Shown: in pieces, positions 4,734 to 22,082 of the stretch
Layout of the letters: each line of letters opens with the position of its first letter
Position numbering within the stretch: position 1 is the stretch's first letter
DNA from: a virus
Strand: one strand, 5' to 3'
Virus record (IMG/VR): IMGVR_UViG_3300025168_000688
Location: 1-23,576 of that record
Length of the DNA stretch: 23,576 nucleotides
Made by a program: the position numbers and the translations under genes
The notes under the pieces: generated by a model
Seen by the model: only the letters and a program-made list of their open reading frames with translations
Told to the model about the DNA's origin: nothing
Database searches by the model: none

Positions 4734-5372
4734 TTATGCCGCCACTTCTGTCCAATTAGGAGTTTGTGAATCGTCAATTTCTTGCCATTTAAAAGGAGTG
4801 CCAAGTTCTCCTGTAGCAGATACGCCTGTTATTGTAACATTAGCTTTGCAATTAAAGGTTGGATTGCCAAGATATCCAGCGGTATTACCGAATACATTTA
4901 CCACAAACTTATTATCAGTTTTTGTGGTTGCAGTACCTAAAGCTGATGTTCCAGCTTGTCCTGTTGGAACTTGATTGGCTTTGGCTATGGTGGTTGGTGA
5001 GCCTACAGCTCCAGTACCTTCTTGACCAGTCACTGATACATTTGCTTCTGCATCCGGGACGATAGATCCAACGCCTGTTGTACCTGCAAGGCCGCTAACA
5101 CTTATGCTATTGTTTGATATGGTTGTAGCTGTACCTAAAGCGGATACTCCAGCCAATCCATTGACTCCTACAACCCCTGGCGCATCAACCGCTACGCCAC
5201 CATTTACAATAGTTGCAGATAAACCGCTAGGTGATACTGTAGCTTTTGCTACAACTGATATTGTTCCTAGAGCAGAAGTTCCTGCTCCCGGAGCTGATAG
5301 TGTGACTGGTATGGGTTCGCCCCAGGTTAATTGACCCCAAGTGCCTCGACCCCAACCGTTAACAATAGCCAT
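4734..5372 (-). CDS. Virion protein with 22-residue tandem repeats
   Basis: This 212-residue protein starts with a Trp/Gly motif (GWGRGTWGQLTWGE) and then carries about seven tandem units of 22 residues from about residue 28 to 183, with core G-x-A-G-T-x-A-L-G-T followed by a variable beta-prone half (for example GLAGVSALGT then ATTISNNSISVS). The last full unit has 23 residues, then a partial unit and a C-terminal WQEIDDSQTPNWTEV. The strict period and the Gly/Ala/Thr/Val content suggest a beta-solenoid or a string of short hairpins, as in fibre shafts. It is flanked by structural genes. I know no named function. The repeats may vary in number between related phages. Confidence 0.6.
   Translation of the reverse strand: MAIVNGWGRGTWGQLTWGEPIPVTLSAPGAGTSALGTISVVAKATVSPSGLSATIVNGGVAVDAPGVVGVNGLAGVSALGTATTISNNSISVSGLAGTTGVGSIVPDAEANVSVTGQEGTGAVGSPTTIAKANQVPTGQAGTSALGTATTKTDNKFVVNVFGNTAGYLGNPTFNCKANVTITGVSATGELGTPFKWQEIDDSQTPNWTEVAA
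4820..5300 (-). repeat. Coding tandem repeat, 66-base period (22 residues)
   Basis: Inside the 4734-5372 gene the encoded unit repeats at 22 residues for six consecutive units, then once at 23. At DNA level the copies are diverged: the conserved part is the stretch coding for AGTSALGT-like sequence. The boundaries given are approximate. Confidence 0.65.
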
Positions 5373-5378
5373 TTAAGG

Positions 5379-5804
5379 CTAGGCGATTCTTATAATCGCT
5401 GTTGAGGATGCTGCTGCTGGAAATACAATAGTAAAGTCTCCAGCGGTAGATGTTTTATCCCCACCAAAGTCAATTGTTGCAACTGATTTGTTGCTATCGC
5501 TTGAGTTGTAAATCATACAACCTCTAGCTGTTATTGTTGCTGTACTGAATGTTAAATTACCAAAGTCAGTAAAAGCAGTTGTTCCAGAGCTAGTAGGTGC
5601 AACTTTAGTTAAAGCTGATCCACCTGTACTATAACCAGTTCCGCTAGCTTGACCAGTTGTTGTGAACGAAGTTGTGGTAGCGCCTAATGTAGCTGATGAT
5701 GTATACAAAGCTAATTTGTATGCGTCACCATTAGTTGCAAAATTATGATTGCCGAGCAACAGCTCTTTTTTAAAGCTTGTTGTAAGTGTTGATGATATTG
5801 CCAT
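5379..5804 (-). CDS. Small virion structural protein, beta-rich
   Basis: This 141-residue protein begins MAISSTLTTSFKKELLLGNH, continues with YKLALYTSSATLGATTTSFT, and later has FTDFGNLTFSTATITARGCM and KSVATIDFGGDKTSTAGDFT segments. It is Ser/Thr/Ala/Gly-rich and almost without charge in the core, with a regular series of beta-strand-like stretches. This general protein type, including the LALYTSSATLG segment, is one I recall from marine phage structural modules without an assigned role. Gene order (between the 97-residue protein and the repeat protein) suggests a tail or fibre component. No catalytic or metal-binding residues stand out. Confidence 0.55.
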   Translation of the reverse strand: MAISSTLTTSFKKELLLGNHNFATNGDAYKLALYTSSATLGATTTSFTTTGQASGTGYSTGGSALTKVAPTSSGTTAFTDFGNLTFSTATITARGCMIYNSSDSNKSVATIDFGGDKTSTAGDFTIVFPAAASSTAIIRIA

Positions 5805-5808
5805 AATA

Positions 5809-6102
5809 TTATAGTTTCCTAATTAAATCAGCAGCTTCTTTTAAACCTGCTTTTTCTAATTCATTGTTTATTGTAATCCTATCAGATTTTATAGCGTTTT
5901 GCATATACTGTTCAATAACTTTTTGAATGTTATCTTGATACTCATTTACTTGTTTTTTTATGTTTTCAGGAGCATCTTCACTTACAGATACAATTTTTTT
6001 AATACATAAGTCAGACCAAAACTCTACTGGATGGCCTCCTTCGCTGGTTGTATGTACCTCAATCATTCCTAATTCAGGACCTGCTTTGTAACTCATTACC
6101 AT
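5809..6102 (-). CDS. Small helical phage protein, unknown function
   Basis: The product of 97 residues has a short N-terminal beta-like part (GPELGMIEVHTTSEGGHPVE) and a long helical, charged C-terminal part (from about residue 45) rich in K, E, N and Q, probably a coiled coil. The upstream gene ends in TAA at 6096-6098. Two starts are possible: ATG at 6102 (MVMSYKAG), preceded by GGAGAG at a suitable distance, or ATG at 6096 (MSYKAG), which overlaps the upstream stop as TAATG. I chose 6102 for its ribosome-binding site. I do not recognise a domain. Its place between a Rossmann-like gene and a virion gene gives no clear function. Confidence 0.55.
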   Translation of the reverse strand: MVMSYKAGPELGMIEVHTTSEGGHPVEFWSDLCIKKIVSVSEDAPENIKKQVNEYQDNIQKVIEQYMQNAIKSDRITINNELEKAGLKEAADLIRKL

Positions 6103-6851: not shown

Positions 6852-7535
6852 TTATGTAACCGTTGTTCTAAGCGAATCGTATCTATATTCGTCTCTTCTA
6901 CCTCTTGCTTCTGCTTTGTTTTTAAGTCTAGCCATTTCTTGTTGAAATCTAGATTCGTATAAATTCATCATATCAGCATCACCTTTCATAAAAGTGTAAG
7001 CTTCTACCAAACAACCATACAAGAGTCCATTTCTTGCATGTTCTGATATCCATGTACCGGTTGTATCTGTAACCAATGAATTAGGTTTATAAAGATAATG
7101 TAATTCTGTTACATAGTCTTGATCTGGTACTGGAGATATTATAATAGTTGACTCTCTTGTCCCTGTATTTAAATCCTTATCAAAGTCTCCATAATACAAA
7201 GGTAATCCACGCGAGCCAGAGTCTGTTGGATCTGGAGCATATTCTTGCATAAAACTGGTATGTTTTTTATCCAAAAAACTATAGTCTCCATTTGACTTAA
7301 TGACTGCTAATGAAAAGGATAATTCAAAATCATCTGGTGTTGTTAAAAATCTTGAACCAGTTGTCATTAAGCCTTTTACATTTTTTCTAAAATAATCAAA
7401 CTGAACAAGCTCAAATATTCTTTCTTCTGTATTTTTTATTATATCGTCTAGAGTGCTGACAAATGTGGCTTCACTATTTTGAGTATAGTTTTGAATTAAA
7501 GTTTTTAATTCTGATAATGTTACTGGACTGCTCAT
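6852..7535 (-). CDS. Head-tail adaptor-like protein (second adaptor)
   Basis: This 227-residue protein begins with a helical region (LSELKTLIQNYTQNSEATFV, residues 7-26, and IIKNTEERIFELVQFDYFRK), followed by a mixed region with FLTTPDDFELSFSLAVI, TIIISPVPDQDYVTELHYLY, and a helical C-terminus (EHARNGLLYGCLVEAYTFMK). The same order (helices, a 'P.DF' beta segment, 'I.P.P' strand, C-terminal helices) is typical of the phage adaptor proteins (SU10-type) that bind below the portal. Size and order relative to the other adaptor gene (8264-8938) support this. Basic residues in the last 30 positions (RLKNKAEARGRRDEYRYDS) are notable. It could instead be a tail-tube-like protein of a short tail. Confidence 0.6.
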   Translation of the reverse strand: MSSPVTLSELKTLIQNYTQNSEATFVSTLDDIIKNTEERIFELVQFDYFRKNVKGLMTTGSRFLTTPDDFELSFSLAVIKSNGDYSFLDKKHTSFMQEYAPDPTDSGSRGLPLYYGDFDKDLNTGTRESTIIISPVPDQDYVTELHYLYKPNSLVTDTTGTWISEHARNGLLYGCLVEAYTFMKGDADMMNLYESRFQQEMARLKNKAEARGRRDEYRYDSLRTTVT

Positions 7536-8263: not shown

Positions 8264-8938
8264 CTAATATCCGTTTCTTAAATAAGGCGCAATTCTAAAA
8301 GAGGCCCTATCTTCATCTTGAGACAATGCTCTTTCGAATTCATCTTCATACATTTGTTTTAACATAACCACTCTGTCAGGAGCTTTTTTAATTGCTATGT
8401 AATATGCAAGTCCAGCGGCAAAACATGGGTAAAATCTAAAAGGCATATCCACGGTGTTAGTCCCGGCATCAGCATCATCCATTCTTACTAGCTTGTTAAA
8501 AACCAATACATCAGTAGAGTTTTCTGGAGCTGGCCATATTTTTAAAATAGGAGTGGTAAGTTTATCTAGAAAAAATTGAGAAGGTCTAGACTTGGTTGAC
8601 TTGGTTGGAATATTTAAATATTCACTTCTGCTAATCATGGACATCTGAAGATCTAAATTAGTTCCGTCAGTGTTTCTTCTTATTGAACAATCTAATATAT
8701 CAATAACATTAGAGTTTAATGTGTAATCGTTTTGACCTTCAGTAACTGTTTGAGTTGATTGTTCTATGGTCCATTGATTAAGACCTCTGTTAGCCCATTC
8801 AGCAAGCATAAGGTTAATGGAACGTTTTGCAGTTTTTAAATCATAACCAGTTCTAAGCTCTAGGCCGCATCTTTCGAATGCTTCCTCTACGAACTCAGCT
8901 ACGTTTGGTTCAAAATTTGTACTGCCTGAAAGTGCCAT
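8264..8938 (-). CDS. Head-tail adaptor/connector protein
   Basis: This 224-residue protein starts MALSGSTNFEPNVAEFVEEA, followed by FERCGLE, RTGYDLKTAKRSINLMLAEW and NQWTIEQSTQTVTEGQNDYT, then LPxxVIDIL-like NSNVIDILDCSIRR, and a C-terminal helical part with AAGLAYYIAIKKAPDRV and MYEDEFERALSQDEDRASFR. This pattern (N-terminal helices with an 'A...IN..L..WANRG' segment, a 'G...Y.L...V.DI' strand and C-terminal helices) is the common adaptor or gp4/tail-tube-A-like connector of short-tailed phages that docks under the portal. The start overlaps the stop of the 41-residue gene upstream as TAATG. Confidence in a neck role is good; the exact family is less sure. Confidence 0.65.
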   Translation of the reverse strand: MALSGSTNFEPNVAEFVEEAFERCGLELRTGYDLKTAKRSINLMLAEWANRGLNQWTIEQSTQTVTEGQNDYTLNSNVIDILDCSIRRNTDGTNLDLQMSMISRSEYLNIPTKSTKSRPSQFFLDKLTTPILKIWPAPENSTDVLVFNKLVRMDDADAGTNTVDMPFRFYPCFAAGLAYYIAIKKAPDRVVMLKQMYEDEFERALSQDEDRASFRIAPYLRNGY

Positions 8939-9063
8939 TATTTCTTACGTTTGGTTGTTTTAAGAGATCTTTCTATTTGTTTCGCTTGTTTCAAATGAAG
9001 CTTTGAAGCTCCTTTTAATTCTTTAACAAGTTTTTTTTTCTGTGATACTGATAATTCAGTCAT
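8938..9063 (-). CDS. 41-residue basic helical protein
   Basis: The short frame starts with ATG at 9063 and ends in TAA at 8938-8940. The product starts MTELSVSQKKKLVKELKGAS and ends KLHLKQAKQIERSLKTTKRK with one more Lys. It is highly basic and predicted helical throughout. It is joined at both ends: its ATG overlaps the stop of the upstream 226-residue gene as TAATG, and its stop overlaps the adaptor start as TAATG. This double coupling is the main reason to call it real. Function is unknown. DNA binding or a capsid-internal role are possible from its charge. Confidence 0.65.
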   Translation of the reverse strand: MTELSVSQKKKLVKELKGASKLHLKQAKQIERSLKTTKRKK

Positions 9064-9743
9064 TATTCCTCCGTATCGTTATACAAGTTATCGAAAACTC
9101 GATTTACATCCAATGTATAGTCTAAATCAGATTTAGAATAATGTATATGTGCAGAAGGTTTAAAGTCAGGTGCCCCTTCTCCAACCTGAAACCAAGCCGG
9201 GTGGGTAGCTCTAACTCTATTGTTTGGCAAAGCTACAATGTTTCCCGTCCATTCTCCTGCATCAAGTAGCTCTAAAACATGACTGCTTTTATGTTGGGCA
9301 GGATCATCTGCTATCTCACTTTCTGCATAATCGACAGTGAAGTAATATTTTGCCGGGAACATTTTACCATCAATCTTAGCAAGCCACGGACATGGTGTTG
9401 CTCGATTCATAACATAAACAGAATTATGGTGAGATGAACAATCCCAGGGTTGTGCATCATGTACAGCCATAGGTTCTGGCCATTCTTCAAAAGGAGTATC
9501 GCCAACTAAAGCTGTAATAGGCATACGAGCCCACATAGCGCCACCGTGAATTGTATCTTCTGGTTCGCCTTCTGCTTCTACGCCTGTAAATATAATATGA
9601 AAACCTAAACAACGATTTGGCATAGTGGTAACACCAATAGCCATTGCATGCAAGAACTCACCATGATATTGCTCATGGTTGTGCGTGTACTCTCTCCTTA
9701 CCCAGCACTTAAAGTGGGGTATATTACTATATAAGTAAGACAC
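9063..9743 (-). CDS. His-rich conserved-looking protein, unknown function
   Basis: This 226-residue protein is unusually rich in His (15 residues) with four Cys (13, 45, 102, 118) and many Trp. Clusters include HNHEQYHGEF (21-30), WDCSSHHNSVY (100-110), and PSAHIHYSK (197-204). The composition is soluble, globular and not repeat-like, and I recall similar proteins from marine phage genomes without a function. The His clusters could bind metal or form an active site, but no known enzyme motif is recognised. The start overlaps the stop of the Lys/Gly repeat gene upstream as TAATG. It lies between basic micro-proteins and the adaptor genes, so it could be a virion or an assembly protein. Confidence 0.6.
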   Translation of the reverse strand: MSYLYSNIPHFKCWVRREYTHNHEQYHGEFLHAMAIGVTTMPNRCLGFHIIFTGVEAEGEPEDTIHGGAMWARMPITALVGDTPFEEWPEPMAVHDAQPWDCSSHHNSVYVMNRATPCPWLAKIDGKMFPAKYYFTVDYAESEIADDPAQHKSSHVLELLDAGEWTGNIVALPNNRVRATHPAWFQVGEGAPDFKPSAHIHYSKSDLDYTLDVNRVFDNLYNDTEE

Positions 9744-9925
9744 TATTTACTTACTTTACCGCCTTTCTTATAACCTTTAGTGCTTACCTTTCCGCCTTTT
9801 TTATAGCCTTTAGTGCTAACCTTACCACCTTTCTTGTAGCCTTTTGATTTCATCATCCCGCCTTTTTTCATGCCTTTTGATTTAACCATCCCACCAGATG
9901 CGTAGCCTTTAGTTTTTTTAAACAT
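9743..9925 (-). CDS. Lys/Gly repeat protein (KGYKKGGKVST repeats)
   Basis: The 60-residue product is almost wholly repeats. Residues about 29-60 contain three nearly identical 11-residue units (KGYKKGGKVST), and the N-terminal half has degenerate versions (KGYASGGMVKS, KGMKKGGMMKS). It has no acidic residues, so it is extremely basic and very likely disordered alone; it may bind DNA, RNA or an acidic partner. The Lys-Gly-Gly motif resembles the basic tags of four other small proteins in the window. The ORF is coupled to the downstream gene by TAATG. This could be a protein that packs or contacts the genome; that is inference from charge. Confidence 0.65.
   Translation of the reverse strand: MFKKTKGYASGGMVKSKGMKKGGMMKSKGYKKGGKVSTKGYKKGGKVSTKGYKKGGKVSK
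9750..9848 (-). repeat. 33-bp tandem repeat inside the Lys/Gly repeat gene
   Basis: Three consecutive 33-base units (9750-9782, 9783-9815, 9816-9848) code for the KGYKKGGKVST unit. The copies differ by only a few bases, mostly synonymous. Degenerate copies continue toward the start codon. Copy number may vary between strains by recombination. Confidence 0.8.
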
Positions 9926-11881: not shown

Positions 11882-12790
11882 TTATGCACCTTGTGATGCA
11901 AATAGACACCTTGGGTTTGAAAAACCAAAAGAATATCTTTCTCTAGCTTTGAATCTGACGTTGCCAGTATCAAAGTCACCTTCCATAGAAGTTGAAAGAG
12001 GAGATCTCTCGAAGTGTTTAAAACCATCAGGACAATCAGTCTTCAAGAACCATGCATCGTTGTCTGTTAAGAAATGGTTAACTGAATAACCTTCTGGGAC
12101 CATTCCCATATTCTTAAGAGCATTGATGTCATTGTCAGAAGTGCTAACTCGGCCAGGAGTATTGAGTAATCTATCAGCCACAAATTGTAATTGTGGTGGG
12201 ACTATCAATTTAGTTCCTTGTAGAGCAAGAATCATGTTTCTGTCATCAACAAAAGTTGAGATAGAAATGATTGCATCTTCTAATGAAGTCTCATTTAAGT
12301 CAGTATAAGTGCTTGGTCTGTTTGAGAAAGTACCGCCACCAGTTAATGGGTGAGCTGTACTTACTAGAGCAACACCATCTCCGCCAGTAAAACTGGATGA
12401 GAAAGCATTATTCAACACAGAAGCAGCTTTTACTTGCTTTGTATGAGCCATAGATCGTGCTAGAGCTTTTGTATATCTAGCTCCTAATCTATCGTATAGG
12501 TTATCTTCGATTGCTTCTTCAGTAAGTGCAAATGCTAACGCAACAGTCTCGTGAGAGTATCTTGCAGTATAGCCTTCTGAAGCGTTGTCGAATGCGACTC
12601 CGTTTCCTTCAGCTTTTACTTGTGCGTTACCGAAACCTACTATTAAGGTTTCTTCTTCAAATGCTCTATCTGATGACTCAGTATCAAAGATTTCAGCATG
12701 CTCGCTTTCATAGCGATTATACTCCATCCCGAATAAGGCGTTTAGACCTGGTTCTAGCTCTTTAGCTAATTGTGAACGATTAATAGCCAT
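11882..12790 (-). CDS. Major capsid protein (HK97-fold, Mu gpT-like)
   Basis: This 302-residue protein is the probable major capsid subunit. It starts MAINRSQLAKELEPGLNALF and has an N-terminal helical segment, then FGMEYNRYESEHAEIFDTES, a YTARYSHETVALAFALTEEA segment, the STAHPLTGGGTFSN motif typical of Mu gpT-like and related phage capsid proteins, and a FVADRLLNTPGRV segment. Size (about 300 residues), gene order (scaffold and decoration candidate just upstream) and a strong terminator right behind, expected for a gene needing high, bounded expression, all agree. It assembles with the scaffold into the procapsid. There is no visible cleavage site. Confidence 0.8.
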   Translation of the reverse strand: MAINRSQLAKELEPGLNALFGMEYNRYESEHAEIFDTESSDRAFEEETLIVGFGNAQVKAEGNGVAFDNASEGYTARYSHETVALAFALTEEAIEDNLYDRLGARYTKALARSMAHTKQVKAASVLNNAFSSSFTGGDGVALVSTAHPLTGGGTFSNRPSTYTDLNETSLEDAIISISTFVDDRNMILALQGTKLIVPPQLQFVADRLLNTPGRVSTSDNDINALKNMGMVPEGYSVNHFLTDNDAWFLKTDCPDGFKHFERSPLSTSMEGDFDTGNVRFKARERYSFGFSNPRCLFASQGA

Positions 12791-12792
12791 TG

Positions 12793-13371
12793 TTAAACTC
12801 CCGTTACTTGAGCGTAGAAGTGCTCGTTAATTTTGACTATCAAGTTAACGTTTGCTGATTGAGAACCAGTACCTAAAGTATTATTCTCAGGATCATTGGA
12901 AATTCCAACAATTCTAAGTTGAGCAGAAGTAGCAGCAGTGGTTCCACTGATTGTAACATCAGATTGTCCATCTACTGTTGAACCAGCAGAGTATACAATA
13001 TCAGCATTGTTACCAATAACTGTTTGTACAACTGAACCAGTTGCAGCACTTTCTACTTCGAATAATGCATTAGGATCGTCAACAACGAAAGCCACCGCGT
13101 CTGATGAGACAGTACCGTTAGGCCAGTAAGGAGAGTAAATTATTTCCCCACTAGAATCAGTATATCTGCATCCTCTGAAGACTCCCAGAAGAAGATCACC
13201 AGCAGCAGCTACTAAAATAGTACCTGTACTCGCCATCTTAACTGGATCGCCTGAAAATATGTTTCCGCTTGCACCTGAAGCAATTGAGTATTCTGTAGTC
13301 CCTTCGGAGTTTACATTACTACCCAGTTTGCTATTAGGTCTTAAGCCGAAAGCAGCATTTTGGTTTGCCAT
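12793..13371 (-). CDS. Putative capsid decoration/accessory protein
   Basis: This 192-residue protein lies two bases upstream of the capsid gene. It starts MANQNAAFGLRPNSKLGSNV and has beta-rich segments such as SGNIFSGDPVKMASTGTILV, LLLGVFRGCRYTDSSG, and AQLRIVGISNDPENNTLG. The 'A-FGLRP' start and 'G-x-x-x-SGDPV' turn recall proteins often found next to marine phage capsid genes. A capsid decoration (cement) protein is a reasonable guess. An internal head protein or a head fibre are alternatives. A 7-bp hairpin straddles the stop of the upstream gene and might affect its translation. Confidence 0.5.
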   Translation of the reverse strand: MANQNAAFGLRPNSKLGSNVNSEGTTEYSIASGASGNIFSGDPVKMASTGTILVAAAGDLLLGVFRGCRYTDSSGEIIYSPYWPNGTVSSDAVAFVVDDPNALFEVESAATGSVVQTVIGNNADIVYSAGSTVDGQSDVTISGTTAATSAQLRIVGISNDPENNTLGTGSQSANVNLIVKINEHFYAQVTGV

Positions 13372-13404: not shown

Positions 13405-13423
13405 AGTAAAGTTATCCTTTACT
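13405..13423. other. 7-bp inverted repeat overlapping the stop of the 170-residue gene
   Basis: AGTAAAG (13405-13411) and CTTTACT (13417-13423) pair perfectly around a 5-base loop. The hairpin includes the stop codon of gene 13412-13924 (13412-13414) and precedes the decoration and capsid genes. No T-run follows, so termination is unlikely; RNA processing or translation control is possible. Confidence 0.4.
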
Positions 13424-13924
13424 TCCTCCGCCAAATGTTACCCTTGACTTCAACTCTCTCGAGATTGGCATCGCGGGATTTTCTTCACGCATCAGGTCGT
13501 TCTCTACTGCATGCATTTGGTTATCAGTTTGGGCCGCGAAATATTCATTACGCTGATCTGCGATTTCTTTCGGTATCTTGCACAGTATTAACCCACCAAC
13601 ACCAATAATTCCAGCATGTCGACCATCATCGACTATAGGCAAATCATGAAAGCCGGGAAGTTCTTCTGGTTTAACTGGCTCGAATCCTTCACGAAATCTT
13701 TTTGAGACATTCGTTTTGTCATCTTGTCCAGCTACAGATTCTCTTACCCATCGATAAACAATTCCTTGAGATTTTGCAATTTCTACAGCTTCTTCTGGAA
13801 GCTCAAGAGCTGAAGGCATCTTCCAGGCTTTTGGCCTTTCTGATTTACTTCTGGCTTCTGAGTCTCTAGGGACTCTGTCATCGTTGCTATTTGCTCTCGT
13901 TACTTTTATCTCTTTATTGCTCAT
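13412..13924 (-). CDS. Unknown protein of the capsid-assembly module
   Basis: This 170-residue protein is charged and partly disordered at its ends: the start MSNKEIKVTRANSNDDRVPR is basic/polar, the middle has a compact region (FHDLPIVDDGRHAGIIGVGG, then LILCKIPKEIADQRNEYFAA), and the end is SRELKSRVTFGGGSKG. Such proteins are common between scaffold and capsid genes in marine phages in my memory, with no role established. The gene's ATG overlaps the scaffold stop as ATGA, so the two are translated together. A capsid accessory or assembly role is inferred from location. The FGGGSKG end is short, basic and glycine-rich, mildly like the tag motif of other small proteins here. Confidence 0.55.
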   Translation of the reverse strand: MSNKEIKVTRANSNDDRVPRDSEARSKSERPKAWKMPSALELPEEAVEIAKSQGIVYRWVRESVAGQDDKTNVSKRFREGFEPVKPEELPGFHDLPIVDDGRHAGIIGVGGLILCKIPKEIADQRNEYFAAQTDNQMHAVENDLMREENPAMPISRELKSRVTFGGGSKG

Positions 13925-14922
13925 GATTTTTGTAGCCTCGCTTTTTGTATTGCGTAATCTTTAAATGACACTCCAAGTTTTTTGGCTAATGCCTGTTCAC
14001 TTGGCGTCAATTGAATACGATTCTGTTTGCGTCCAGTCGATGTGTTGCGTGTGGCTGAAGCGACTGTTTGGACGTTCTTTTTCGCTTCCACGTTAAACTT
14101 GTGAGGCAACTCTTGTTGTACCCTCTTATCAATCTCACTATAGTACTGATCAGAGTCAGTGTCAAAGCCTTCATTTTCTAGTTGCTTATGAACAGCAAAG
14201 GCAACTGACGTTGCAACTTGGTCTTGTCCAAACCAAGTATTCTTTTGTGCCCACTCTCTAGCTTTAGGAGATGGCTCATTAAACTCTTCAGCTGGTTGAG
14301 CATATTGCTCTGGAGTTTGATTTTGTTGTTGATTTTGAATATAAGCAGCTTCTTGCTCTTCGTACTGCTTTTGAGCTTGAGAGTATTGCTGAAGCCTAGC
14401 TTTATCAGTTGTAGCTAAAGTTAAAGCTTCTGTAGCTGAAGCAATAGCTTCTGAGTCTCCGGCTTCTGTTGCTTGTCTTAATGCTTGTTTTGCCAAAGTC
14501 ATTTGAGATTCAACCCTGTTGGTGAACTCATCACTGTAACTACTAGAGAAAGACTTTTGTTGTTGTCTTAATTTTTCGTTTTGATCTTTAAGATCTTTGG
14601 CATATTGAACCGCCATGAGTTCTCTTCTTTGAAACTCTTTGGCTTGAGCAACTGCTTTGTTAATTCTGTTTTGTGCTAGAGATGCTCTTTTCTCTACCTC
14701 AGATAAATCTTTTGCTTGTTCCTCTACTTTTGGAGAAACTGCAAAGTCTTCTTGAACTTCGTCTTCTGTTACAGGAGAAACTTCTTGAGAATCATCACCC
14801 AATGAAACTTCGACAGCTTCATCGCTTACTTCTTCTTCAACGCGTCTTTTCTCAGGCAATGCTGCCTTTTCGATCTTCTCGTCTGTAATTTCTATGTCTA
14901 AATTTTCTGCTTCGTTTGCCAT
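13921..14922 (-). CDS. Putative scaffolding protein
   Basis: This 333-residue protein has the profile of a phage scaffold: acidic, low-complexity N-terminus (residues 1-75, with many E and D), a long coiled-coil region (about 75-205, rich in A, Q, K and E with EKLRQQQKSF), a Gln-rich stretch (YIQNQQQNQTPEQYAQPAEE), then a small helical, basic C-terminus (PSEQALAKKLGVSFKDYAIQ). The basic C-terminal helix fits capsid binding in P22-like and other scaffolds. It precedes the capsid gene and is preceded by the GroES-like gene. No protease motif is visible. The role is well supported by composition and position but not by a specific domain match. Confidence 0.65.
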   Translation of the reverse strand: MANEAENLDIEITDEKIEKAALPEKRRVEEEVSDEAVEVSLGDDSQEVSPVTEDEVQEDFAVSPKVEEQAKDLSEVEKRASLAQNRINKAVAQAKEFQRRELMAVQYAKDLKDQNEKLRQQQKSFSSSYSDEFTNRVESQMTLAKQALRQATEAGDSEAIASATEALTLATTDKARLQQYSQAQKQYEEQEAAYIQNQQQNQTPEQYAQPAEEFNEPSPKAREWAQKNTWFGQDQVATSVAFAVHKQLENEGFDTDSDQYYSEIDKRVQQELPHKFNVEAKKNVQTVASATRNTSTGRKQNRIQLTPSEQALAKKLGVSFKDYAIQKARLQKS

Positions 14923-14934
14923 GCTTTACCTCTC

Positions 14935-15399
14935 TTATAAAGATTTAATATCGTCAGGATCTAAAATTGTTCCAATGATGTCATCGTCATTAATGATTCT
15001 AACTTCGTGATCATCTTCTAAACGGAAACGGGAACCAGCATATCTGCCAATTAACACCCAGTCTTTTTCTTGACACCAGGGTTTGTCTCCATATTTTTCT
15101 TTTTCTTTATAAGCTAAAGGTCCAACCTTTAGAACGTAAGCAACCACTGTAGACAAAGATTCTCTGTCCATGGTTTCTTTAACGAGCTGAATACCGCCTT
15201 CAGTTACACCCTTACCTCTATAAGGTAAAACAAGAATACGCCATCCAGATGGATTTGGCATTCTGTCTAATAATGATTTACTGAGTAGTTTGGGATCTAG
15301 AACTCTTGCTTCTTCTGTTACAAAAGCTTTATCAAGTTCTAATGAGGCTTCTTTTTTTTCTTCTATATTTTCTGCGACTTTGTCATTCATCGATATCAT
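14935..15399 (-). CDS. Phage GroES-like co-chaperonin
   Basis: This 154-residue protein has an N-terminal extension of about 45 residues and then a GroES/Cpn10-like domain (about 49-146): SGWRILVLPYRGKGV (51-65), a mobile-loop motif GGIQL (68-72) like the GGIVL of bacterial GroES, VGPLAY with DKPWCQEKDWVLIGRYAGSR (105-124), and EVRIINDDDIIGTIL (132-146). Bacterial GroES has about 97 residues, so this copy is longer. It would cap host GroEL and help fold phage proteins such as the capsid subunit, by analogy with T4 gp31. The two possible starts are MISMNDK (15399) or MNDK (15390); both overlap the upstream gene. Confidence 0.8.
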   Translation of the reverse strand: MISMNDKVAENIEEKKEASLELDKAFVTEEARVLDPKLLSKSLLDRMPNPSGWRILVLPYRGKGVTEGGIQLVKETMDRESLSTVVAYVLKVGPLAYKEKEKYGDKPWCQEKDWVLIGRYAGSRFRLEDDHEVRIINDDDIIGTILDPDDIKSL

Positions 15400-15577
15400 C
15401 CATATGCAGCGTTTCTTTTAAATCGTCTATGAGTGAGCGAACCGCCGATAACGCACCCATATGATATTTGTACTCTTCCATGGATTGTACATTCCCTGCT
15501 GAAAGACTGTCAACTAAATCCTGTTCTCTTTTGCGCAGAGTCTTAAAAAAATACTCCGCGAGTTTTACGCTATCCAT
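15383..15577 (-). CDS. Small helical protein upstream of the GroES-like gene
   Basis: This 64-residue protein is wholly helix-prone: MDSVKLAEYFFKTLRKREQD, then LVDSLSAGNVQSMEEYKYHM, GALSAVRSLIDDLKETLHMD. The heptad-like pattern of L, V, I and A with charged residues suggests a helical hairpin, possibly dimeric. I recall such short proteins near capsid and portal genes in marine phages without a known role. A good AGGAGAG ribosome-binding site precedes the ATG. Its end overlaps the GroES-like gene. It might act in assembly with the scaffold or co-chaperonin; this is only inferred from neighbours. Confidence 0.55.
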   Translation of the reverse strand: MDSVKLAEYFFKTLRKREQDLVDSLSAGNVQSMEEYKYHMGALSAVRSLIDDLKETLHMDDIDE

Positions 15578-16869: not shown

Positions 16870-17130
16870 TTATTTTTTCTTTTTAACTGCCTTCTTAACT
16901 ACCTTGGCCTTAGTCTTAACGACAGACTTAGACTTTTTGGCTTTAGACTTGACCGTTTTGGTTGCTTTCGCAAGGACCTTGTCTGCATCTTTGTCTGCTT
17001 TTTTGGCGATCTTGTCGATGTCGATATTTGCATTCTCATTGATGATCGGTTGATTGCCATTTAATTTTGCCTCTTCTTCTTTCATTACAGCCTTGTTTAT
17101 TGCTGTCATTTTTTGTCTAACTGAACTCAT
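16870..17130 (-). CDS. Lysine-rich protein with histone H1-like tail
   Basis: This 86-residue protein has a mixed N-terminal half (MSSVRQKMTAINKAVMKEEE, then AKLNGNQPIINENANIDIDK) and a C-terminal half of Lys, Ala, Val and Ser only (KATKTVKSKAKKSKSVVKTK, then AKVVKKAVKKKK). This composition is that of histone H1 C-terminal tails and of bacterial KxxAK-type DNA-binding proteins. The start overlaps the portal stop as ATGA, so it is translated with the portal. A DNA-condensing or virion-internal role is plausible but not shown. Simple linker or disordered tail is the alternative. Confidence 0.65.
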   Translation of the reverse strand: MSSVRQKMTAINKAVMKEEEAKLNGNQPIINENANIDIDKIAKKADKDADKVLAKATKTVKSKAKKSKSVVKTKAKVVKKAVKKKK

Positions 17131-19589
17131 TTGTTACCTCGCATGATATCCATTGCTTTGAATTGATTTTGTTGTTCGATCCTTTCACGAGCAATTGTGT
17201 CTTTCATCATAGCAATTTCTTTTTGAATTTGTAACCTTTGCTCTGCAAGTTCATTGCCTTGCATTGCTTTCATTGCATCAAACTGTTGACGCTGCACAAA
17301 CTCTTCACGCTTGCGTTGTACATCATCAGCTTTAATGTCTAGCTCTTTGCCCCTTAATTCTACCAGTGGATCTGGCATGGGTGGAGGTGGCATAAACATT
17401 TGATTAATTTGTTGCATTAACTGAGCAACCACCGCAGATACATCACGAGCCACAGAATCTTTTAGTTGCTGTTGATAACCCATAGACATTTCTGGTGGCA
17501 ACATATTGATCTGTTGCATTGTTGCTTGGAACTCTGGGTTCTGAGCATTTTGTTGATCTACTATTTCAGCGGCCCTAAATGAAACATGCTGATAAACGTG
17601 TGCTTGTATAAGAGATAAGACTGGCGGATTCGATTGAGCAGTAATGGTGTTATACAAAGACATGTGTGAATTAATGTGTGCATCATGATCTTGTCCCATA
17701 AATGCTTGTTGGGGCAATCCTGTAATCAGCCCTGCGTTCTCACTTGCTGGGTCCATAGGTTGTGGCTGTGGAGGAGGTGGCAATAACTGTTCTATGTTTT
17801 GTACTCCCATGGCCGCGTACATTCTTCTATAAGCTTCATGAATACCATTCGGGCCATGAATCTCTGGATTGCTTTGTACTGTTCTAAGTAACTCTTGAGC
17901 CATCATGACTCGTTGCGCCATAGAGAAAGTATTCGGATCTGATATTGGTAAGACGTCTACACGCTCATCAAAGTCCACAGCCTTGATGGTTTGATTACCA
18001 TTGGCTGTGTTGTACGGATAAGCAGGTGGCAAGTATTCAGCAAAAACCTTGGATAAGATTTCAAACTCAATTCTTTGAGATGCATGCAATCTTTTGTGAA
18101 TTGCAGACATAACTCTTGTGCCACGCTCAAGTAGAGCAACCGTTGTACCTACCGGCGCATTTTGATTCGCATCACCAATTTGCATGTCAGCAATAGATGC
18201 GAAACGCCGACCACTATCGACAAGGATTCCCAGGAGAGAAAGTAGAGTTTGAGAAGGTTCCTTGAACGGTAACGGTACAAAGGCGTCTCGCAAACTTCCA
18301 CCGGGAGCGTCCATGTCTCTGAACTCACCTGGTTGTAAGGGTTGATCGTCATTGCGAATACGAATTCCACGCGCCTTAAAGCCAGCTGGTAAATTGGATA
18401 AAGTACCAGCGTCAATAAGTTGACGTAGAATGGAGGTCGAGGCTTTGGATAAGCCTCCGATCATGTGGGTTAAACCAAAGCCATAGAATCCTAGGCCTGG
18501 TAAAAACTTGTAATGCACAAAGTAATTGATGCGTTCTTTTAACTGATCATTTTCTTTGTAGTTTCTTCTGATGGACAATACTTTGTCATTGGCCATGGTA
18601 ACGATGTATGGCAACTTAATGCCTGTCTCTTCACCTTCAGCGTTCATGTCTTCAAAGCCCGGTATGTCTAACTCGACATGGGACTCAAAGACTTGACAGC
18701 TATCATCGTCTGAATAGCTAGGCTCAACGCCCTGTAACTTATCGATCTCCTCTTGGATTTCGTCAGTTTCGTCTGGATTTACTGTTCCATAGTTTAGTTC
18801 TACATCACGATAAAAACCAACTTGTTGCAGCTTGCGTATTTCATTCATTGACATATTAATCACATGAGTGATTCTTGTCGCGCTGTGTAAGTCTGTTGCC
18901 CCATATGGAACAATTAAGTCTTCACTTGGAATGAACTTAGAAACTGCTCTGCCTAAGTTTTGATCGTAATATACTTTTCTAAAGGCTGAACCACTCAGCG
19001 GTAGGTAGAACAACATCTGATCGGTTTCTGAATCATACTCACGCATAACTTGCATGAGCTGATAGTTCATGAACTCTTGCACGCGTGATGCTTGTTGTTC
19101 TGTTTCAGGGGTAGCCATGCCAATGACTTGTGTCTTGACTGGTCCTTGCGATGGTAAGAGTTCGTTATAGGCTTGCGCTTGGAACTGAGTTACAGATTCT
19201 GCAAGCAATGGATGCATAACACCAGAAGCCCCATCAAATGGTTGGGTTCTTTCTTCGTAGTTCATACCAAGATATTCTAGGCCTTCGCGATATGTTTTTT
19301 CCCATTCTTTGCGTGACTCTTTATCAGCATCGATGCTGCCCATCAAATCATTTTTGACTGTTCTTAGTTCTTTATCATCAATGATTTCAGCAAGGTTGGC
19401 ATAGAAGTCTGTATCTTCCATAGGGGGAGTGGGCATGCCAAATGCAATGTTGCCATCTTCAAGTTGCTCAAAGTTATCGAAGTCTGCATCTTCTTCAGTT
19501 ACATCAACTTCTAGCTCCATGCCTTTGGATCTATCTCTAACCTTAAGGTCTACTTGATCCTCAATGGTGATTGCTTTCTCTATTGCCAT
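17127..19589 (-). CDS. Portal protein
   Basis: This 820-residue protein is the portal (head-tail connector), the dodecameric ring at the packaging vertex. Features: acidic N-terminus (MAIEKAITIE, then EEDADFDNFEQLEDG), conserved-looking core with YREGLEYLGMNYEERTQPFD (100-119), GASGVMHPLLAESVTQFQAQ (120-139), and FIPSEDLIVPYGATDLHSAT. A Pro/Gln-rich segment (LLPPPPQPQPMDP) precedes a Met/Gln-rich, helical C-terminus of about 150 residues ending in alternating charges. The length, well above the roughly 500-residue norm, is as in P22-like and T7-like portals with long C-terminal barrels. The gene directly follows small basic genes and the terminase, in typical packaging-module order. Confidence 0.8.
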   Translation of the reverse strand: MAIEKAITIEDQVDLKVRDRSKGMELEVDVTEEDADFDNFEQLEDGNIAFGMPTPPMEDTDFYANLAEIIDDKELRTVKNDLMGSIDADKESRKEWEKTYREGLEYLGMNYEERTQPFDGASGVMHPLLAESVTQFQAQAYNELLPSQGPVKTQVIGMATPETEQQASRVQEFMNYQLMQVMREYDSETDQMLFYLPLSGSAFRKVYYDQNLGRAVSKFIPSEDLIVPYGATDLHSATRITHVINMSMNEIRKLQQVGFYRDVELNYGTVNPDETDEIQEEIDKLQGVEPSYSDDDSCQVFESHVELDIPGFEDMNAEGEETGIKLPYIVTMANDKVLSIRRNYKENDQLKERINYFVHYKFLPGLGFYGFGLTHMIGGLSKASTSILRQLIDAGTLSNLPAGFKARGIRIRNDDQPLQPGEFRDMDAPGGSLRDAFVPLPFKEPSQTLLSLLGILVDSGRRFASIADMQIGDANQNAPVGTTVALLERGTRVMSAIHKRLHASQRIEFEILSKVFAEYLPPAYPYNTANGNQTIKAVDFDERVDVLPISDPNTFSMAQRVMMAQELLRTVQSNPEIHGPNGIHEAYRRMYAAMGVQNIEQLLPPPPQPQPMDPASENAGLITGLPQQAFMGQDHDAHINSHMSLYNTITAQSNPPVLSLIQAHVYQHVSFRAAEIVDQQNAQNPEFQATMQQINMLPPEMSMGYQQQLKDSVARDVSAVVAQLMQQINQMFMPPPPMPDPLVELRGKELDIKADDVQRKREEFVQRQQFDAMKAMQGNELAEQRLQIQKEIAMMKDTIARERIEQQNQFKAMDIMRGNK

Positions 19590-20166: not shown

Positions 20167-21636
20167 CTAATAATAAACTCGTTGTCTAGGAATTGGCTCT
20201 TCATCTTCTTCATCTGAATCCAATTTTACAAAGTTACCTTGACGAAATCTTAGTATAGCCTGTGTTGTTGAATCTACAAAATCATCGTGTTCACCGAAAG
20301 GAAAGGCTGCGCATTCCTCTATAACTTCCTCTGCATAAATAGCATCGGGAGCCCACACCATCCCTGCTTCAAACACAGGAGAGGCGCTGTGTACACGGGT
20401 GACTTTGTCCTTCCCTTTAGTGGGTCGGTAGTTCACCACAGGTATGCCCATCATTCTCAGCTCGTGCGTCAAAGGCGTACCACTTGCTTGAGATTCTATC
20501 AAGACAATGTCCGGTTGCCAATAGCTATATTCATCATAAGCTGTCGACTTAAGATCGGGAAAGTCCCAACGCCCACGTTTGGCATCGAGCAAGATAATAG
20601 ATTCAGGTGCACCATCGCTCGGACGAAACACGCCCCAAGTGGTAATGGCGCTGTAGTCAGCAGTCTGCTTAGAACTAAAAGCGGTATCGTAAGACTGGAG
20701 TATGTACGAACAAGGAGGTGGATCATCGTGCTCCCACATCTGCCACCATTCGCGTTTGAGCAAAGCGCCTTCTTCAGAGGTAGGGTTTTGCATGTACTGG
20801 GCGTTCCACTTGGCCACAGGCAACGAAGCTTTCACAGACTCAAGCTCTTCAATCTTCCAGTACCCAGGCCACAAGGGTGTGTTGTCTTCCAAAATGGCAG
20901 GCAACTCTAAGATCTCCCATTGATCAGCATGGTCTTCGCTCATGCGCTTAATAAGTTTCTCAGTCAAATCTAGCGTTGACCAACGCGTCATGACAATCAC
21001 AATGATACCGCCGGGCTGTAAACGCTGGCGCGGGCCAGAGGTATACCATTCATACGCTGACTCAAGGGCAGACGGAGACATGGCATCTTGCTCAGAGTGT
21101 GGATCATCAATGATCAGCAAGTCAGCGCCTCGACCCGTAATCGCGCCACCGACTCCAGCCGCAAAGTATTCACCGCCTTTGTTCGTCTCCCAGCGCCCGG
21201 CTGACTTAGAATCAGCAGACAGCTGTACGTTCTCAAAGATCTGCTTGTACTCATTGGTGTCCATCAAGTTACGCACCTTGCGCCCAAACCTTGCTGAGAG
21301 TTCCGCGGTGTGAGTGGTTTGCATGATTTTCATATCAGGACGCAGTCCCATGATCCAACTTGGGAAGAACACAGAAGCAAACTCGGACTTGGTGTGACGT
21401 GGGGGCATGTTAACGATCAGGCGCTTGCACTTGCCTTGGGCTACCGATTCGAGTTTTTGCGCGAAGAGCCTGTGGTGATCGCCTTCGATGAAGCCATCCC
21501 AGACTTGCTTGACGTAGTGAATGAAGTCTTTCTGAGCTTTGCCGCTGGTTTTAAGTTTCTTGATGCGATCTTGGATGGCCACTATCTCTTTTAGGGCATC
21601 ATCTGGAACATGGTCTAGTTTTGTTTCTTTTCCCAT
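20167..21636 (-). CDS. terL: Large terminase subunit (DNA-packaging ATPase and nuclease)
   Basis: This 489-residue protein is the packaging motor. The ATPase half shows a variant Walker A (PPRHTKS, 78-84), Walker B (LLIIDD, 173-178) and a coupling motif MTRW (216-219). The nuclease half shows the acidic residues of an RNase-H-like fold: D317 in QSYDTAF, E381 in VLIES, and D452/D455 in HDDFVD. It acts with the portal to translocate DNA into the procapsid, and cuts it. No small terminase is seen in the window; the XF1762-like gene takes its usual place. The start overlaps that gene's end by 22 bases. Confidence 0.9.
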   Translation of the reverse strand: MGKETKLDHVPDDALKEIVAIQDRIKKLKTSGKAQKDFIHYVKQVWDGFIEGDHHRLFAQKLESVAQGKCKRLIVNMPPRHTKSEFASVFFPSWIMGLRPDMKIMQTTHTAELSARFGRKVRNLMDTNEYKQIFENVQLSADSKSAGRWETNKGGEYFAAGVGGAITGRGADLLIIDDPHSEQDAMSPSALESAYEWYTSGPRQRLQPGGIIVIVMTRWSTLDLTEKLIKRMSEDHADQWEILELPAILEDNTPLWPGYWKIEELESVKASLPVAKWNAQYMQNPTSEEGALLKREWWQMWEHDDPPPCSYILQSYDTAFSSKQTADYSAITTWGVFRPSDGAPESIILLDAKRGRWDFPDLKSTAYDEYSYWQPDIVLIESQASGTPLTHELRMMGIPVVNYRPTKGKDKVTRVHSASPVFEAGMVWAPDAIYAEEVIEECAAFPFGEHDDFVDSTTQAILRFRQGNFVKLDSDEEDEEPIPRQRVYY

Positions 21637-22082
21637 CTAAATTTCATTTGTCCTATAACTGGTTGCCATTCTCTCCCTGGTCTTGTAGTCCAACCTTTGC
21701 CTTCTTTCCATCCGCCTGTTTCTCCAATCATTTTCCAACCAACAGCTTTCATGGTAGATCCAGACTCAGTTTGTAATGTATAGGTTATCATTCTTTTGCC
21801 ACCCATTTGATTCCAAACTCTCCAGCACCTTCCATATAAAAATGAATTAGTATTTTTTGGAGCATCTTCTAAAACACAAGTTCTTGTTACTTCAGCTGTA
21901 AATCCATCGTCTAGCTTTCTTGCGACAGGCCTTCCAACAATTGATACTCCTACAAGTTTATCATCACAACTAGCTCCTAAACAAAACCTAGCTCCTTGAG
22001 CTTTTTTATTGTGTCTATGAAAATTTGTTACAAACTCATTTGCTTCCCTTAATGTTATGGGAATTATCTTTAGTCTCTCCAA
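21615..22082 (-). CDS. XF1762-type GNAT-like protein, TTG start
   Basis: This 155-residue protein matches the XF1762 family pattern as I recall it: IPITLREANEFV (7-18), HRHN, VGVSIVGRPVAR (44-55), EVTRTCV (64-70), ITYTLQTESG (99-108) and GWK (115-117). The family has a GNAT-like look and is often phage-encoded, with no known substrate. TTG at 22080-22082 is the best start, since an in-frame TGA lies just upstream and no ATG precedes the conserved block; GAGAG lies 5' of it. It is the first gene of the leftward module and overlaps terL by 22 bases. Confidence 0.7.
   Translation of the reverse strand: MERLKIIPITLREANEFVTNFHRHNKKAQGARFCLGASCDDKLVGVSIVGRPVARKLDDGFTAEVTRTCVLEDAPKNTNSFLYGRCWRVWNQMGGKRMITYTLQTESGSTMKAVGWKMIGETGGWKEGKGWTTRPGREWQPVIGQMKFRWEKKQN

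Follow-up and report, generated by a model that had tools for sequence, protein, structure and literature searches.

A gene resembling groES lies among the head genes of a marine phage, in a virus record of 23,576 bases, a 23.6 kb fragment whose whole length we call the window, and it raises the question of which proteins such a co-chaperonin would serve, and on which chaperonin. The original prediction was that it works with host GroEL in the folding of the phage capsid protein. Here we examine the identity of the gene, its linkage to its neighbours and the parts of the protein that could bear on its function.

Results

The gene encodes a Cpn10/GroES-family protein

The predicted interval proved to be correct; the strand, which had not been named, is minus. 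The ORF opens with ATG at 15399 and reads from 15399 to 14935, and the plus strand of the same interval is closed by many stops.

14935–15399, minus strand: GroES/Cpn10 co-chaperonin gene, 154 aa (PF00166 above cut-off, PHROG 3188, AF2 model and PDB matches)

Both motifs on which the family assignment had drawn, GGIQL and IINDDDIIGTI, are seen in the translation. Residues 50–145 match the Pfam family PF00166 (Cpn10) at 26.0 bits against a cut-off of 21.1 (E 9.7e-6), and the protein matches PHROG 3188, ‘co-chaperonin GroES’, at E 1.1e-13. A PDB search with the single sequence gave weak matches, the best of them Cpn20 at E 4.6e-5. When a profile of 60 relatives was used, 14 distinct solved sequences were found at E < 0.001, all of the Cpn10/GroES or chloroplast Cpn20/Cpn23 type, with Cpn20 of 7ekq (structure title CrClpP-S2c) as the best match.

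The AF2 model of the 154-aa protein has a mean pLDDT of 74.8 and a pTM of 0.63; the barrel is confident from about residue 50 and the N-terminal extension is poorly predicted. Fold comparison with Foldseek and VIA-align 2 ranked solved GroES chains first. The model core (residues 42–152) gave its best score with 8wuc (Z 10.5, 94 residues, rmsd 3.3), followed by 1aon (Z 8.5) and the gp31 entries 2cgt (Z 8.4, rmsd 1.9 over 72 residues) and 1g31 (Z 7.9), while the first structural match that is not a co-chaperonin, a quinone oxidoreductase, scored Z 6.2. The GroES fold anticipated from the motifs is therefore what AF2 predicts. Predicted viral structures (BFVD) include many entries named ‘Co-chaperonin GroES [uncultured virus]’, the best being 44% identical and 155 aa long; these presumably derive from the ISME J 2017 study of virioplankton chaperonins. 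We conclude that the 154-aa ORF is a member of the Cpn10/GroES family.

GroES lies within a conserved head-gene cassette

The minus-strand order in the window is terminase, small genes, portal, small genes, a 64-aa ORF, GroES, genes for proteins of 333, 170 and 192 aa, and the capsid gene.

20167–21636, minus strand: terminase large subunit (phrog_38, E 4.3e-112)
17127–19589, minus strand: portal protein, SU10 type (PF23899, E 6.6e-12; phrog_1216, E 2e-48)
15383–15577, minus strand: 64-aa ORF (phrog_32603), overlapping the GroES start by 17 nt
13921–14922, minus strand: scaffold-like acidic 333-aa protein (phrog_28737), 12 nt after GroES
13412–13924, minus strand: 170-aa protein (PHROG match, phrog_36003)
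12793–13371, minus strand: 192-aa protein (PHROG match, phrog_37556)
11882–12790, minus strand: major capsid protein, 302 aa, 33.1 kDa (PF25209, E 5e-12; phrog_371, E 1.4e-20)

The cassette bears out the placement of GroES in the capsid module. The prediction had it directly before both the scaffold and the capsid gene, which holds for the scaffold, across a gap of 12 nt, and not for the capsid gene, the fourth downstream. A homologue of the scaffold-like protein is found directly downstream of GroES in all 132 loci with at least 1300 nt of downstream sequence. ‘Scaffold’ is a putative label given by position, the protein match being to a PHROG of unknown function. At this position MW202675 (3868–4740) has a gene labelled ‘endopeptidase clp ATP-binding subunit C’ and Pag-Yong1 (4945–5832) one labelled ‘kinesin motor domain-containing protein’; both are probably misannotated coiled-coil scaffold-like proteins.

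On the other side of GroES, 118 of the 131 loci that include 400 nt or more of upstream sequence have a homologue of the 64-aa ORF immediately before GroES; in the other 13 it is missing or unrecognised. The product of this ORF is a possible partner of GroES or of the scaffold. In DSL-LC04 the gene at this position carries the annotation ‘type III secretion system’.

Elsewhere on the minus strand of the window, a Mom-like DNA modification protein (21615–22082; PF25680, phrog_1384) adjoins the terminase, and two SU10-type adaptor homologues (PF24175) are encoded at 6852–7535 and 8264–8938, with one gene between them. The structural region also holds an ORF at 9063–9743 that matches phrog_3704, labelled ferredoxin. 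A 60-aa Lys/Gly-rich peptide with SKGYKKGGKV-like repeats is encoded at 9743–9925, beside small basic ORFs.

GroES is linked to one type of capsid protein

Among the 80 IMG/VR capsid matches listed, GroES precedes the capsid gene by ∼2.0–2.3 kb in all 37 loci that extend 3.5 kb or more upstream. A capsid gene is present in all 57 IMG/VR GroES loci that extend 3.3 kb or more downstream. These loci are close relatives (capsid protein 69–92% identical to that of the window) and hence non-independent. A search of 50,697 public phage records with the capsid protein gave 22 matches. In all 18 of those with at least 38% identity, GroES lies directly before the scaffold-like gene, as established from gene tables for 13 records and from tblastn coordinates for CRP-901, GB2A, RLK, KcrB and Pra-JY27, the latter five having a GroES-to-capsid spacing of ∼2.0–2.3 kb. 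Exactly the same 18 records were matched by the portal protein. In CRP-901, CRP-902 and MW202675 the portal gene is ∼9–11 kb from GroES, as compared with 1.7 kb in the window, and GroES nevertheless remains with the scaffold and capsid genes.

Three of the four more distant capsid-matching records were inspected for Cpn10, MW202604 being left out. In MW202601 and the archaeal virus vir526, whose capsid proteins are only 27–30% identical, Cpn10 is encoded elsewhere in the genome; in the third, an unannotated fragment of 10.8 kb, no Cpn10 was found. In vir526, the host of which is given as Methanomicrobiales, groS (100–456) lies before the terminase gene and not before a scaffold gene.

To provide a control, 12 phages that the capsid search had not matched were picked among the best 60 of 2,535 terminase-matching records, and none encodes Cpn10. 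This control is small and its phages are distant, so it indicates that Cpn10 is not general, without establishing capsid type as the cause. A mirror-tree analysis of five genes of the cassette, based on 115 unique loci, was not decisive, all of the genes being correlated; the partial correlation of GroES was highest with the capsid protein (0.39), modestly above that with the scaffold (0.25), the pairs being non-independent. Because neighbouring genes are linked to GroES as well, linkage does not single out the capsid protein.

Genome contigs provided 32 loci, from metagenome-assembled and single-cell genomes that span many phyla; four carry the label Pelagibacter or Pelagibacteraceae. Since these loci probably represent phage contigs that were recovered or binned together with cells, we claim no host for the window.

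No GroEL was found in the window record, a 23.6 kb fragment, nor in 16 public phage records (one of them a fragment) or 12 IMG/VR records (several of them fragments), while the same search detected GroEL in 14 of 14 control genomes. The earlier remark that no GroEL is visible thus extends to all 29 records searched, the window and several fragments included.

The mobile loop is lengthened and its outer hydrophobic residues are conserved

15184–15198, minus strand: mobile-loop motif GGIQL, residues 68–72 (I70 and L72 in 62 of 62 close CDS)
15061–15123, minus strand: roof-region segment, residues 93–113 (21 residues, 20 in solved GroES)

The loop had been described as longer than usual, and the count agrees. 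Counted from its GG up to the glycine conserved in V-x-x-x-G, the segment is 24 residues long in every row of a 60-row alignment of relatives and in 26 of the 27 rows of a second alignment, the remaining row having 25, as against 20 in bacterial GroES from Xanthomonas oryzae (3nx6) and Thermus thermophilus (4v4o and 1wnr, two entries for one protein), all counts being read from alignments. The original prediction also relied on conservation of the hydrophobic triplet in relatives. This is the case for its outer two residues, which are hydrophobic in all 60 rows of the larger alignment and in 26 of 27 of the smaller, the exception being IIR in cyanophage MinM2. It does not extend to the middle residue, which is variable and often polar: 56 of 62 close relatives have Q at this position, and 42 of the 60 rows have Q, Y or H.

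The roof segment has 20–27 residues across the 60-row alignment, and only 12 in one distant row of the 27-row alignment, MW202796. No hairpin is assigned to this segment in the AF2 model.

Half of the N-terminal extension is under purifying selection

15262–15399, minus strand: N-terminal extension, residues 1–46 (AF2 pLDDT about 48–56 for residues 1–40)
15262–15342, minus strand: conserved half of the extension, residues 20–46, with the motif RVLDPxLLxKS..RMP (pN/pS 0.26)

The extra N-terminal stretch, put at about 45 residues in the prediction, amounts to 46 residues ahead of the barrel. When the start in relatives is taken as the first ATG that gives a protein of 105–185 aa, 31–69 residues precede the conserved proline (Pro48) in 59 of the 60 aligned rows and two in the other. 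Selection on this region was assessed with 78 complete IMG/VR genes that resemble the query and reduce to 62 unique CDS; pN/pS was calculated for the 43 CDS of at least 79% identity (903 pairs). The ratio is 0.085 for the core, 0.26 for residues 20–46 and 1.3 for residues 1–19. R32, V33, L34, D35, P36, L38, K41, R46, M47 and P48 are invariant in all 62 unique CDS. We conclude that purifying selection acts on the second half of the extension, which has a motif shared across the clade. Residues 1–19 (15343–15399, minus strand) have a pS of only 0.075 and a pN of 0.098 among the 43 close genes; their odd ratio may reflect repetitive K/E codons and the fact that the upstream gene overlaps this stretch.

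Met47 is a plausible internal start, which raised the possibility that the extension is a translation artefact. This was rejected as the main reading because residues 20–46 evolve as coding sequence and because relatives outside the clade, with I or L in place of Met47, still keep the frame; a short second product from Met47 is possible.

Wider relatives often have an extension with a VPDHVA-like opening, a variable charged linker and then a segment like RVLDPxLLxKS..RMP. In the window protein the extension is probably a flexible arm that includes a single short conserved segment. Distant phages have a short extension, with six residues before the conserved proline in one and 17–26 in three. 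The extension is thus a feature of the clade and is unnecessary for being a phage GroES.

Discussion

We think it probable, with a good measure of reserve, that this phage co-chaperonin caps host GroEL over head proteins, above all the major capsid protein. GroES would form a seven-membered lid, the mobile loop of which would bind host GroEL; the lid would close the GroEL chamber over phage head proteins encoded in the same operon, with the major capsid protein as the presumed main client. The role in capsid folding proposed for GroES is well motivated by its linkage to the cassette.

The precedent is T4 gp31, which replaces GroES and is needed for gp23 (PMC6318259, PMC3012670). Its mobile loop has 22 residues as compared with 16 in GroES, it is without roof loops, and it serves a capsid protein of 56 kDa (PMC6318259). 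The capsid protein encoded in the window, at 33.1 kDa, is small enough for an ordinary GroEL–GroES cage, and the size argument made for gp31 is therefore not transferable. The original suggestion that the extension and longer loop could alter the folding cage keeps some force from the four additional loop residues; the unshortened roof segment and the small capsid protein argue against it. The gp31 homologues prefer their own gp23 (PMC3012670), which indicates that features besides size can set specificity. Specificity of that kind would suit this phage better than would a change in cage size, with the longer loop and the arm as possible contributors.

A stronger version of this model makes the protein a dedicated capsid lid, in which the extension is a client- or scaffold-binding arm that feeds capsid protein to GroEL or the scaffold. 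We regard this as doubtful. The extension would bring nascent capsid protein to host GroEL, or pass it on to the scaffold, and the lid would then pick its client via a separate arm; we know of no such selection for GroES or gp31.

The protein might instead be a general substitute for GroES that adds to or replaces the host lid for any client, its place in the head operon reflecting late, high expression. The core does resemble ordinary GroES, the capsid protein is small, and gp31 can stand in for GroES with Escherichia coli proteins (PMC6318259), so that this is a real, if lesser, possibility. A general helper could sit anywhere, however, whereas this gene goes with a single type of capsid and portal (all 18 records, against none of the 12 controls) and keeps its place beside the scaffold and capsid genes where the portal has moved away. 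Its fixed position among head genes, taken with the polar middle residue of the loop and the long, poorly ordered extension, could also be accounted for if GroEL function had been lost and the GroES fold retained in a head protein, for instance an assembly or virion component of the scaffold–capsid cassette. That is quite unlikely, as the loop glycines and outer hydrophobic residues are under strong purifying selection, as expected for GroEL binding; furthermore, in the account of the unrelated siphovirus B8b, GroES is listed without virion peptide counts, which some of its neighbours have (PMC4294664).

The chloroplast proteins Cpn20 and Cpn23 are known to sit on a ClpP core, and the first rank of Cpn20 of 7ekq in the profile search could suggest that the phage protein acts by capping or jamming some other ring, or host GroEL, for instance in the takeover of the host. 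We give this the least credence: Cpn20 comes first only when matches are ranked by sequence, GroEL-bound GroES leads when they are ranked by structure, and the gene lies in a late head module and not among takeover genes.

The system has several attractions. It links a phage GroES to a single lineage of capsids in phages that infect Alphaproteobacteria, Betaproteobacteria and cyanobacteria. The capsid protein is of a size that does not call for the larger cage of gp31, which provides a clean test of why a phage supplies a lid of its own, the question being one of client choice rather than cage size. The conserved arm on the lid is open to deletion and assay.

The occurrence of GroES beside capsid genes is largely known in relatives from Pelagibacter, Roseobacter, Caulobacter and cyanobacteria. 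Co-chaperonin GroES is among the 13 core genes of HTVC023P-type pelagiphages (PMC9599517) and is marked in the CRP-901 type (PMC10149686); siphovirus B8b also has GroES, and greater complexity of its capsid or tail was put forward by its authors to account for this (PMC4294664). In the portions of the literature that our search returned, we found no statement on linkage of GroES and capsid genes across hosts. The present analysis adds the fixed linkage with a single capsid type in phages of different hosts, the residue count of the loop and the finding that half of the extension is conserved.

The closest named relatives, HTVC023P gp36, HTVC027P gp55, 023Pt_psg01 and the DSL-LC04 GroES, are 44–54% identical to the window protein over its residues 46–154. 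The HTVC023P-type phages and DSL-LC04 share the gene order of the window from the small ORF to the capsid gene, the HTVC023P capsid protein being 69% identical to that of the window, and their GroES proteins have 39–49 residues ahead of the conserved proline. The RVLDPxLLxKS..RMP motif of the window clade is partly kept in DSL-LC04 and unrecognisable in HTVC023P. Among predicted structures the best matches are the virioplankton GroES entries of BFVD, the first three of which are 29–44% identical and 139–155 aa long. Bacterial GroES (1aon, 8wuc, 4v4o) has the same fold and loop motif; the bacterial chains aligned differ in being without an N-terminal extension, in a loop four residues shorter and in V at the middle of the triplet. 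T4 gp31 is alike in fold (2cgt, Z 8.4), yet only 11–12% identical in structural alignment. The two phage proteins share a loop longer than that of GroES; in contrast to gp31, the window protein keeps an unshortened roof segment and accompanies a capsid protein of 33 kDa rather than the ∼56 kDa of gp23.
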